From contig NZ_VBUM01000002.1 in the NCBI RefSeq assembly GCF_005774735.1, positions 1 through 64,000 of the forward strand: DNA of 64,000 nt, in the 5' to 3' direction. The notes under the pieces were generated by a model that was not told the origin of the DNA, did no database searches, and saw nothing but the letters and a program-made list of their open reading frames with translations. This document shows, one piece after another, positions 42,826 through 45,744 of this stretch; the first letter of the stretch is position 1, and each line of letters opens with the position of its first letter. This DNA comes from Microbacterium sp. 5K110. GTDB lineage: Bacteria > Actinomycetota > Actinomycetes > Actinomycetales > Microbacteriaceae. The position numbers and the translations under genes are program-made.

Positions 42826-43029
42826 TCAGCGCACTCTGAGGTAGGACTCGGCCTCGAACACCGGCCGACGAGACTTCGTCAGCAGGACGGCGCGCTGAGC
42901 GGTGGCGTCGGCGCGAACCACGCGTGCCTGCATGCGGGCGTGGGCGTGCTCGGCCAGGGCCCGCGACAGAGCGAGGAGCAGTTTCTCGACGGTCGTGGCG
43001 GCCACGAGCGGCGCGGTGAGCGCGGTCAT
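42826..43029 (-). CDS. Small protein coupled to the winged-helix regulator
   Basis: A 67-residue basic protein, not recognised. It begins MTALTAPLVAATTVEKLLLA, then SRALAEHAHARMQARVVRAD, and ends KSRRPVFEAESYLRV. It has no membrane segment. The ATG overlaps the stop of the upstream regulator by four bases (ATGA), so the two are co-translated. It may act with the regulator or be an accessory of it. Its length is close to that of small regulator-linked proteins, but no function can be given. Confidence 0.65.
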   Translation of the reverse strand: MTALTAPLVAATTVEKLLLALSRALAEHAHARMQARVVRADATAQRAVLLTKSRRPVFEAESYLRVR

Positions 43030-43619
43030 GAGGAGCCTCCTTCGGCGGGCAGGGGGAAGACGTCGGCGCGCATCGTGACGACGCGCAGCCCGTCTCCGGT
43101 CTGATGGCGATAGCGCTGGACGGTCTCGTCGACGACCGCCTGCAGCCGGGCGCTGAGTTCGGTCATCTGCTCCGCGGTGAGCCGCGCGCTGGCGGTGGAG
43201 ATGAGGCTGCCCTCGCGCCACGGCTCGGGTTCCTCCCATCCGTGGATGGCGAAGTGCAGCAGTCGTTGCTGGCGGATGTTGAGGGTCTCGCTGTGCACGG
43301 CCTCTTGAATCGCACGACCCGCGGCGGTGTGCGAGAGCTCGGGATTCGACAGCGTCACCATCCCGACGGGGCGCTCCCACCAGCGTTCGCGCGCGGTCCC
43401 GCGCCCCTCGACCTCGCGGATGAGGTCCTGCCGGGCGAGGGCGCGCAAGTGGTAGCTCGTCGCCCCGGTGGATTCGCCGGTGAGCGACGCCAGTCCACTC
43501 GCCGTCTGCGGTCCGTACTGGCTGAGCAGATCGAACAGCTGTGCCCGCAGCGGGTGGGCCAGGGCGCGGAGGGCTCCCGCGTCGAGAACGCGGTCGCGGG
43601 GGTCGGTTGGGCTGGTCAC
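43026..43619 (-). CDS. ArsR-like winged-helix transcriptional regulator
   Basis: A 197-residue protein with an N-terminal ArsR-type winged helix: LRALAHPLRAQLFDLLSQYGPQTASGLASLTGESTGATSYHLRAL, where the last helix is the recognition helix. The rest resembles a dimerisation and ligand region. No Cys pair for metal binding is seen. The GTG at 43619 is chosen over an upstream in-frame ATG at 43655 because that ATG lies in the operator, while a TTGCAT-N17-TAACTT promoter ends 7 bases before the GTG. The two repeats over the promoter indicate self-repression. It is divergent from an M3 peptidase gene. Confidence 0.8.
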   Translation of the reverse strand: MTSPTDPRDRVLDAGALRALAHPLRAQLFDLLSQYGPQTASGLASLTGESTGATSYHLRALARQDLIREVEGRGTARERWWERPVGMVTLSNPELSHTAAGRAIQEAVHSETLNIRQQRLLHFAIHGWEEPEPWREGSLISTASARLTAEQMTELSARLQAVVDETVQRYRHQTGDGLRVVTMRADVFPLPAEGGSS

Positions 43620-43622
43620 GAA

Positions 43623-43640
43623 TGCAAAGTTACCTTTGCA
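43623..43640. promoter_or_regulatory. Operator 1 over the winged-helix -10 box
   Basis: TGCAAAG and CTTTGCA arms around TTAC, a perfect 7-base inverted repeat. The minus-strand -10 box TAACTT (43627-43632) lies inside. Confidence 0.7.
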
Positions 43641-43650
43641 TCGAAAGTTA

Positions 43651-43668
43651 TGCAAACCCTTCTTTGCA
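43651..43668. promoter_or_regulatory. Operator 2 over the winged-helix -35 box
   Basis: TGCAAA and TTTGCA arms around CCCTTC. It covers the -35 box TTGCAT (43650-43655, minus strand). Its centre is 28 bases from that of operator 1, just under three helical turns. Confidence 0.7.
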
Positions 43669-43680
43669 TGTCGGAGTGAC

Positions 43681-43686
43681 TACGCT
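43681..43686 (+). promoter_or_regulatory. Leaderless -10 box of the M3 peptidase
   Basis: TACGCT, then GGAACG, then the ATG at 43693. Operator 2 ends 12 bases upstream, so the regulator may also affect this promoter. Confidence 0.5.
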
Positions 43687-43692
43687 GGAACG

Positions 43693-45744
43693 ATGACGGA
43701 TGCCGTGACCAATCCCCTCCTCGCTCCGACGCCGCTCCCCTACGATCTGCCGCCCTACGGCAGCATCCGCCCGGAGCACTACCTCCCCGCGTTCCACGAG
43801 GCCTTCGCCGCGCAGCGCGCAGAAGTCGATGCGATCACCGCCCAGATCGAGCCCCCGAGGTTCGAGAACACCCTCGTCGCGCTCGAGCGCAGCGGAGAGA
43901 TGCTCGACCGCGTCGCTCGCACGTTCTACACCGTCGCCTCGGCCGACGGCACGCCCGAGATCCAGGCCATCGAGGAAGAGCTCGCACCGCTCATGTCCGC
44001 CCACGGCGACGCGATCCAGCTCGACACCGCGCTGTTCGCGCGCGTCACCGCCGTGCACGAGTCCCTGGACGCCCTCGACCTGGATGCCGAGAGCCGGTAT
44101 CTCGTCGAACGTCGCCACCGCGAGATGTCGCTGGCGGGCGCGGGACTCGATGACGCGCAGAAGCAGCGCCTCACCGACCTCAACCAGCGCCTGTCGACGC
44201 TCACCACGACGTTCGAGAAGAACCTGCTCGCCGACACCAACGACCTCGCCGTCGTGTTCGACGACGCCGCCGAACTCGACGGACTGAGCGAGGGCGAGCT
44301 GTCGGCCGCCGCGCAGGCCGCAACCGAGCGCGGGCTCGACGGTCGCTACGTCGTCACGCTCACGCTGTACACCGGGCACCCGTATCTCGCTTCGCTCACG
44401 AACCGCGACTCCCGTCGTCGGCTGCTGGAGGCCTCGCGGGCGCGCGGGACCCGCGGGAACGCGAACGACAACCGTGCGACGCTCCGCGAGATCGTGCGGC
44501 TGCGCGCCGAGCGCGCCGCCCTGCTCGGTTACCCCTCGCACGCGGCCGCGGTGCTCGCCGACCAGACCGCCGGGTCTCCGGATGCCGCGCGCGATCTGCT
44601 CCGCCGCCTCGCCGGTCCCGCGGCCGCCAACGCGCGCGCCGAGCAGCAGGCCCTCCAGCGGATCGCCGACACCGATGGCGTGGCGATCGAAGCGCACGAC
44701 TGGGCGTTCTACACCGAGAAGGTGCGGGCCGAGCAATACGACCTCGATCGTGCGGCGCTGCGGCCCTGGTTCGAAGCGGAGCGAGTGCTGCGCGACGGCG
44801 TGTTCTCGGCCGCCGAGCAGCTGTACGGCATCCGGATCGCCGAGCGCCACGACCTCCAGGGCTACCACCCCGACGTGCGGGTGTTCGAGGTGCACAACGC
44901 CGACGGCAGCGAACTCGGCCTGTTCCTGCTCGACCTGTACACGCGCGACTCCAAGCGCGGCGGCGCGTGGATGAACTCGATCGTGACGCAGTCACGACTG
45001 CGCGGCACAGCCCCGGTCGTGGTCAACAACCTCAACGTGAACAAGCCCGCACCGGGCACGCCGACGCTCTTGACCCTCGACGAGGTCACGACGCTGTTCC
45101 ACGAGTTCGGTCACGCACTGCACGGACTGTTCGCGACGGTCACCTACCCGCACTTCGCCGGCACCGCGGTGCACCGCGACTTCGTGGAGTTCCCGAGCCA
45201 GGTGAACGAGATGTGGATCTTCTGGCCCGAGATCCTCGCCCACTACGCGCGACACCACGAGACCGGCGAGCCGCTGCCGGCCGACGTCGTCGAGCGGCTG
45301 CACGCGTCGGAGGCGTTCAACCAGGGCTTCGCCACGAGCGAGTACCTTGCGGCATCCTGGATCGATCAGGCCTGGCACGGTCTGTCGGTCGGTGAGGCGG
45401 CGGGCGAGATCGACGTCGCGGCGTTCGAGGCGGCGGCCCTCGCCGACATCGGTCTCGACAACCCCGCGGTGCCCACTCGCTACGCCTCGACGTACTTCGC
45501 GCACGTGTTCTCGGGCGGGTACAGCGCCGGGTACTACTCCTACATCTGGAGCGAGGTGCTCGACGCCGACACGGTGGAGTGGTTCCGCGAGAACGGCGGC
45601 CTCACGCGCGAGAACGGCGACCGGTTCCGCCAGCGTCTCCTCGGCGTCGGCGGCTCCGGCGACCCGCTCGCGGCCTACCGTGACTTCCGCGGTCGGGATG
45701 CCGAGATCCAGCCGCTGCTCGAGCGTCGCGGCCTCACCGGCTGA
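43693..45744 (+). CDS. M3-family metallopeptidase (peptidyl-dipeptidase Dcp type)
   Basis: A 683-residue zinc peptidase that trims oligopeptides in the cytoplasm. The zinc motif HEFGH is near residue 470 (TLFHEFGHALHGLF), and the third ligand Glu lies further on in FVEFPSQVNEMW. The late GGYSAGYYSYIWSEVLDADT matches Dcp/OpdA. No signal peptide is seen. The ATG is fixed by the leaderless -10 box. It is divergent from the winged-helix regulator and may belong to its regulon. Confidence 0.93.
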   Translation: MTDAVTNPLLAPTPLPYDLPPYGSIRPEHYLPAFHEAFAAQRAEVDAITAQIEPPRFENTLVALERSGEMLDRVARTFYTVASADGTPEIQAIEEELAPLMSAHGDAIQLDTALFARVTAVHESLDALDLDAESRYLVERRHREMSLAGAGLDDAQKQRLTDLNQRLSTLTTTFEKNLLADTNDLAVVFDDAAELDGLSEGELSAAAQAATERGLDGRYVVTLTLYTGHPYLASLTNRDSRRRLLEASRARGTRGNANDNRATLREIVRLRAERAALLGYPSHAAAVLADQTAGSPDAARDLLRRLAGPAAANARAEQQALQRIADTDGVAIEAHDWAFYTEKVRAEQYDLDRAALRPWFEAERVLRDGVFSAAEQLYGIRIAERHDLQGYHPDVRVFEVHNADGSELGLFLLDLYTRDSKRGGAWMNSIVTQSRLRGTAPVVVNNLNVNKPAPGTPTLLTLDEVTTLFHEFGHALHGLFATVTYPHFAGTAVHRDFVEFPSQVNEMWIFWPEILAHYARHHETGEPLPADVVERLHASEAFNQGFATSEYLAASWIDQAWHGLSVGEAAGEIDVAAFEAAALADIGLDNPAVPTRYASTYFAHVFSGGYSAGYYSYIWSEVLDADTVEWFRENGGLTRENGDRFRQRLLGVGGSGDPLAAYRDFRGRDAEIQPLLERRGLTG

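Follow-up and report, generated by a model that had tools for sequence, protein, structure and literature searches.

The window analysed here, the whole 64,000-nucleotide stretch of Microbacterium sp. 5K110, carries on its minus strand a gene for a winged-helix regulator followed by a small reading frame, and divergently from these, on the plus strand, a gene (dcp) for an M3 peptidase (Table 1). Regulator and peptidase genes are separated by a 73-base gap with a G+C content of 45%, against 70% for the window, and within this gap lie a repeated TGCA motif and the predicted promoter elements of both genes. The peptidase resembles Dcp, with 398.9 bits to PF01432 and 734.2 bits to its best model, NF007624, whose equivalog cut-off is 944. 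The 67-residue product of the small frame has no match in Pfam or NCBIfam, and a similar protein is encoded at three related loci (L064–L066).

Table 1. Features of the regulator–dcp locus, with positions in the window
Feature	Position	Strand	Remarks
Small 67-aa protein	42826..43029	-	ATG overlaps regulator stop codon
ArsR-like HTH_20 winged-helix regulator	43026..43619	-	197 aa; predicted leaderless GTG start at 43619
Promoter-proximal operator unit (candidate)	43623..43640	-	TGCAAAGGTAACTTTGCA; both arms perfect; spans regulator -10
-10 hexamer TAACTT, regulator promoter	43627..43632	-	17-bp spacer from -35
Middle array unit	43637..43654	-	TGCATAACTTTCGATGCA; TGCA anchors intact, arms decayed
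-35 hexamer TTGCAT, regulator promoter	43650..43655	-	made from array sequence itself
Distal operator unit (candidate)	43651..43668	-	TGCAAAGAAGGGTTTGCA; overlaps regulator -35
dcp -10 TACGCT	43681..43686	+	6 nt before dcp ATG at 43693
M3 peptidase, Dcp-like peptidyl-dipeptidase (dcp)	43693..45744	+	divergent from regulator

The regulator groups with the ArsR-like HTH_20 winged-helix proteins on the strength of its Pfam HTH_20 score (PF12840; 40.2 bits against a gathering cut-off of 27) and its winged-helix fold, and HTH_5 also scores above cut-off. It falls outside the ArsR/SmtB metalloregulators as modelled by NCBIfam NF033788 (35.6 bits against a cut-off of 55). ArsR/SmtB metalloregulators carry a cysteine metal site; the translation of the window regulator has no cysteine, and no column that is invariant across 51 relatives contains one. 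In these sequences the DNA-binding segment GES.G.TSYHLRALA and the motif RERWW hardly vary. An AlphaFold2 model (mean pLDDT 87.3) aligned with chains of CzrA, SmtB, CadC, HlyU and ArsR at VIA-align Z scores of 9.5–11.7, mostly over the N-terminal domain. The nearest full-length solved fold is that of Kfla_6221 of Kribbella flavida (PDB 4g6q chain A; Z 12.1, rmsd 4.8 over 170 residues, Foldseek E 4.5e-5), which is only 13–15% identical in sequence and whose entry title names no function; a sequence search for solved relatives of known function gave only weak matches to ArsR-type winged helices. The regulator thus resembles ArsR/SmtB-type repressors (CzrA, SmtB, CadC, HlyU, NolR) in its winged-helix fold and its HTH_20 and HTH_5 scores, and in this family the operator characteristically lies over the protein's own promoter, as the candidate operator does here. 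It differs from them in its length of 197 residues with a long C-terminal part, in its lack of cysteine and in the organization of its candidate operator as a multi-unit array with a period of 14 bp.

The TGCA array and the regulator promoter

Two palindromes, ATGCAAAGTTACCTTTGCAT at 43622–43641 and ATGCAAACCCTTCTTTGCAT at 43650–43669, lie in the gap with their centres 28 bp apart, just where a sequence-only reading had placed them. That reading had taken the pair for two phased operators, a view that does not hold, because 28 bp corresponds to 2.67 turns at 10.5 bp per turn and the two sites therefore lie on different faces of the helix. The spacing is instead 2 x 14 bp, since TGCA recurs every 14 bp, at 43623, 43637, 43651 and 43665, and these four anchors form one array. 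On the evidence of the anchors, the palindromes form the two ends of a single array whose middle unit has decayed. The left arm of the middle unit is gone in the window, where the unit begins TGCAT, and in five of the seven relatives compared alongside it (L063, L065–L067, L075), and is still present in L064 and L068. The array is the sole 14-bp chain of at least two TGCA within the 64 kb, and a chain of at least three appeared in none of 200 Markov-simulated windows. The palindrome TGCAAAGN4CTTTGCA, allowed up to three mismatches, has two matches in the window against 0.28 expected by chance, a number reached in one of 100 shuffles.

A genome search with this palindrome had been suggested as a way to define a regulon. 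At up to two mismatches it returned these two places and no further site in the whole 3.71-Mb genome (five matches for a reversed control pattern), and a three-TGCA pattern at the same tolerance gave this locus and one match of unlike sequence (C102:102024). At up to two mismatches, palindrome and array are thus features of this locus alone, and the regulator was rejected as a candidate for a global controller with a genome-wide regulon.

Read along the minus strand, the predicted promoter consists of TTGCAT (43655–43650), a spacer of 17 bp and TAACTT (43632–43627), followed after 7 nt by GTG (43619–43617), and the palindromes do cover the -10 and -35 of the winged-helix regulator as had been noted. 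The hexamers, the spacer and the GTG are as described earlier; to call the promoter well formed was generous, as each hexamer has, by eye, three of the six bases of the E. coli consensus and a generic sigma-70 scan called no promoter at the regulator start. Support for the promoter comes rather from its conservation across loci. The comparison set comprised 76 named loci encoding relatives of the regulator plus the window, nearly all filed as Microbacterium, with others from Arthrobacter, Sanguibacter and some metagenome bins; because protein similarity was the criterion by which the 76 were collected, and they are related to each other, the counts over these 77 loci are not independent. One member, L106 (JACEFY010000068.1), is a contig filed under Stenotrophomonas maltophilia with a Microbacterium-like regulator–dcp locus and probably a contaminant, and L117, filed under Microthrixaceae, may likewise be misbinned.

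All 77 loci carry TGCA pairs 14 bp apart upstream of the regulator. Chains of at least three TGCA are present in 71 of them (70 when the reading is confined to the 160 bp ahead of the aligned start), six arrays have just two exact TGCA, and among periods of 8–30 bp tested only 28, besides 14, gives more than two loci. When the 77 loci were aligned on the promoter, the -35 read TTGCAA in 67 and TTGCAT in six, with the next TGCA inside the 17-bp spacer, and the -10 read TATCTT in 33; an in-frame start followed the -10 after 6 nt in 42 loci and 7 nt in 29, in a procedure that presupposed an 8-bp distance from TGCA to the -10 and favoured candidates with an in-frame start 5–9 nt on. Five loci had no start in that range and L096 had one at 9 nt; a looser search that dispensed with the TGCA register placed a start at 6–7 nt in L085, L096, L102, L108 and L112, and failed only in L138. 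Because the 8-bp step and the preference for a nearby start were built into the alignment, a recount was made with exact TGCA and with all distances from 0 to 20 given equal weight. In 45 of the 77 loci it placed TANNNT 6 nt ahead of an in-frame start, and in 29 it did so at 7 nt; in 66 loci the second of two exact TGCA 14 bp apart starts 8 bp upstream of the hexamer, every other distance or offset occurring in at most three loci. The complete layout (TGCA-10-TGCA, 8 bp to TANNNT, 6–7 nt to an in-frame start) is present in 66 loci. As far as sequence can, the recount settles the start at 43619 and not 43655, as the sequence-only reading had proposed, and the regulator is predicted to be translated from a leaderless GTG.

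The arrays fall into two layouts. At 34 loci, the window among them, the array continues beyond the -10, and it is the unit covering this hexamer that has the highest average palindrome score (4.24 out of 5 inner pairs), with its downstream TGCA intact in 17 of the 34; at 37 loci the array stops before the -10 and the most palindromic unit (3.49) lies between the -35 and the -10. A protein bound at either position would stand in the way of RNA polymerase. Among the 205 units, 139 preserve the left arm TGCAAAG and 55 the right arm CTTTGCA, so that inner units resemble direct repeats and the promoter-proximal unit a palindrome. Alternating occupancy, with units 1 and 3 better than unit 2, was considered as a general rule and set aside: it holds for the window and the loci closest to it, but in the second layout the good palindrome is promoter-proximal only.

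Directional repeats in register with promoter elements recall the sites of SARP and BldC proteins, whose repeat periods are 11 and 9 bp, respectively; the period here is 14 bp and the regulator belongs to another protein family. SARP-type regulators bind direct repeats beside a weak -35 and recruit RNA polymerase, and by analogy the regulator might activate its own gene, a reading in keeping with repeats that lie mostly on or upstream of the -35 and with the non-consensus TTGCAA at that position. Yet such a role appears improbable, as the best palindrome occupies the -10, a blocking position, in the 34 loci that include the window, and the fold is that of ArsR-type repressors.

Co-occurrence of array and regulator

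Among 149 genomes of the genus, 107 encode a strong orthologue of the regulator (E <= 1e-30), and the site was found at up to one mismatch in 105 of these, against one of the 42 others (hand tally); the two orthologue genomes without a tight site, G018 and G107, carry looser arrays (L164, L165). Across the family, the three-TGCA pattern at up to three mismatches matched 73 of 199 genomes in 43 of 85 genera, against 13 for the reversed control (manual row count), and at all 20 loci delivered by the scan (L170–L189) a relative of the regulator adjoins the array. At the level of the class, the DNA pattern alone, at up to two mismatches, matched 58 of 246 genomes in 22 of 103 genera, the reversed control matching two. 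Of the 58 matched genomes, 27 loci, chosen by DNA alone, were examined, and this regulator family adjoins the array at all 27, with L207 counted after correction of its reading frame. The recognition helices at these loci are close to GESSG.TSYHLR, the most divergent being that of L220 (SSASASFHLR). The window's own array is missed by the three-TGCA pattern at two mismatches and matched at three, which marks it as a degraded example and accounts for the absence of its genome from the class matches.

The promoter register extends beyond the genus as well. The strict layout is complete at 28 of 46 outside loci, drawn from the family and class levels together, and a tolerant test (offsets of 7–9 bp and 5–8 nt, mildly penalized where they departed from 8 bp and 6–7 nt, and one TGCA mismatch) is passed by 42 of the 46, the exceptions being L178, L215, L216 and L218. 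In the 42 passing loci the -10 lies 6 nt (30 loci) or 7 nt (12 loci) before the start, and TGCA lies 8 bp before the -10 in 32 and 7 or 9 bp before it in 10. The count covers 46 of 47 loci; L170 was omitted as a short contig with no regulator reading frame, in which tblastn found residues 13–57. Taken together, the co-occurrence in genus, family and class argues strongly that the regulator is the protein that binds the array.

The distance between the divergent -10s of regulator and dcp differs among L080, L082, L092, L117 and others by roughly whole 14-bp units (53, 67/68, 81, 95), which points to gain and loss of array units. Slippage would produce such steps, and the array could in principle be promoter architecture to which the regulator is irrelevant, its repeats serving some other DNA-binding protein or arising as slippage products of the -35-like TTGCAA. 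Against this stand the 105 of 107 genomes with array and orthologue, compared with one of 42, and the 27 of 27 class loci picked by DNA that adjoin this gene family, and such an explanation is very hard to credit.

The transporter gene and the divergent peptidase

A gene for an MFS transporter lies directly behind the regulator at 43 of the 77 loci by a strict measure of adjacency; it does not at 31, and at three the sequence ends too early to tell. Counted among the 31 are L116 and L119, where MFS matches are present and the strict distance failed. In several closely inspected relatives the order is regulator, small protein, MFS gene, and the transporter of L089 matches both MFS_1 and MFS_3. 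Comparable small reading frames between regulator and MFS gene were seen in some relatives, e.g. L089, L118 and L121. In other genera, nine of 20 downstream frames scanned match MFS families and 11 match no family, these frames being the longest reading frames and many of them cut by the end of the fetched stretch. The arrangement at the 43 loci is like that of a local repressor of a transporter operon, the logic of MarR, TetR and PadR systems. The window departs from it, in that no MFS gene follows the regulator and the genome has no orthologue of the transporter, and its stacked array on a leaderless promoter is a further difference. Relocation of the transporter elsewhere in the genome was dismissed, as the best matches there, in an assembly of 179 contigs, are partial and 30–31% identical.

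The MFS gene is missing not only in the window but also at 12 of the 13 nearest named loci (L063–L075; L069 is cut too short) and at the four loci of M. oleivorans (L127, L130–L132), and each of these keeps an array with at least two TGCA. Because 26 of the 31 loci that fail strict adjacency keep at least three TGCA, the transporter cannot be the sole reason for retention of the array.

The second neighbour is the peptidase gene, which lies upstream of the regulator on the opposite strand at 73 of the 76 named loci (828 bp away in L115) and does not adjoin it in L116, L135 and L137. That the promoter of the divergent M3 peptidase shares the 73-base gap, as had been proposed, agrees with the wider comparison: a -10 of the TA[CG]GCT type, located by pattern and with no distance to the start imposed, was found at 72 of the 74 dcp loci, window counted, either 6 nt (44) or 7 nt (28) before the start, the pattern missing L063 and L138. 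The gene also looks leaderless, TA[CG]GCT and a following G being conserved across the genus (43681–43692 in the window). No clear -35 for dcp is conserved across the loci. The array lies 10–39 bp from the dcp -10, with one outlier at 755 bp, and 12 bp from it in the window. The interval between the divergent -10s is 81 in 15, 67 in 10 and 55 in eight of the 72 loci, and 48 in the window; it equals 11 modulo 14 in 30 of 71 (an outlier of 791 omitted). A fixed relation between array and dcp was considered and abandoned, since the distances cluster but not universally and shared descent and slippage can explain the clustering.

The array might serve mainly as a bidirectional switch over the regulator and the divergent Dcp, in a peptide- or nutrient-linked response. 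The frequency of the divergent arrangement, the persistence of arrays where the MFS gene is not adjacent and the clustering of -10-to--10 distances in whole units at part of the loci all favour this reading, as does the position of the window's distal unit, which by inference overlaps the expected dcp -35 when this is counted from the dcp -10 with a 17-bp spacer, and which makes an effect on dcp plausible in the window. However, both the register of the array and the polarity of its arms track the regulator promoter, dcp has no clearly conserved -35, its distance from the array varies, and the gene was not found in the fetched stretch at eight of the 20 loci from other genera (L170–L189), in addition to the three loci where it does not adjoin the regulator. 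A switch devoted chiefly to both genes is accordingly judged unlikely, and some control of dcp by the array and its regulator possible.

A proposed autorepressor and its relatives

The recurrence of the same array before the same type of regulator in many actinobacteria indicates that the protein most likely switches itself off, and often a transporter too. The reading preferred here, with a probability of roughly 0.8, is of an ArsR-like HTH_20 autorepressor with stacked, promoter-occluding operators, released by a ligand and governing its own gene together with that of the small protein and, at loci that have one, the MFS gene; at the level of sequence, the candidate operator overlaps the regulator's own -35 and -10. 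In this model, the regulator would bind tandem palindromic units of 18 bp, repeated at 14-bp intervals over its leaderless promoter and overlapping in TGCA, and the bound dimers would occlude the -35 and -10. Expression of the regulator, the coupled small protein and the transporter would be held low until an inducing ligand releases the regulator. All units could hardly be filled at once, since neighbours share a TGCA, and if each dimer needs its own TGCA, at most alternate units would be occupied. In the window, where the transporter gene is gone and the middle unit has decayed, two strong sites for dimers would remain at a spacing of 28 bp, and both might be bound simultaneously. The asymmetry of most inner units counts against the autorepressor, in that a symmetric dimer does not obviously require it. 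What the autorepressor model retains of the sequence-only reading is operators on the regulator promoter, the start at 43619 and the divergent promoter; the phased pair and the wider regulon are given up.

The type of protein and its autorepression are of known kinds. No description of a class-wide operator of several units with a 14-bp period, fixed in register to a leaderless promoter, was found in the part of the open-access literature that was searched. A regulator family without a function name in the libraries used can be identified by its operator DNA alone across a class, as it was at all 27 loci examined, and the sequence allows its promoter and start codon to be assigned with single-base precision. 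The model makes predictions for the site, the spacing, the leaderless start and the transporter as a frequent target, and the lineages that lack the transporter and retained the switch constitute a natural experiment.

It is tempting, if still speculative, to extend the model to self-regulating modules throughout the Actinomycetes, where members of an HTH_20 family would recognize sites arranged as a helical ladder and the helices of paralogues pair with other outer bases in a partly readable protein–DNA code. If so, units of 14 bp, each rotated by about 120 degrees, would let dimers wind round the promoter as a three-fold staircase, with cooperative switching tuned by how many units there are. 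A lead in this direction comes from 20 loci of paralogues (L144–L163, 26–36% identical), whose operators were read by eye and from a palindrome listing. No such site was seen in L163, and in L147 and L162 no more than a single short palindrome, lying within or at the reading frame; several of the others have overlapping palindromes of their own close to the start codon, in which the outer bases differ. These take the form CTAAAG..CTTGCGAAAG..CTTTAG in L151, L152, L155 and L156, CTGAAA..CTTTCAG in L145, L153, L154, L158 and L161, TGCA with a 13-bp period in L157, L159 and L160, and other variants in L144, L146 and L148–L150. Recognition helix and outer bases appear to pair, SNCSYHLR going with CTGAAA-, TSYHLR with TGCA- and SCSFHLR with CTAAAG/GCGAAAG, the exceptions to the last being L146 and L150, which have ATGAAAG/GCGCAAG.
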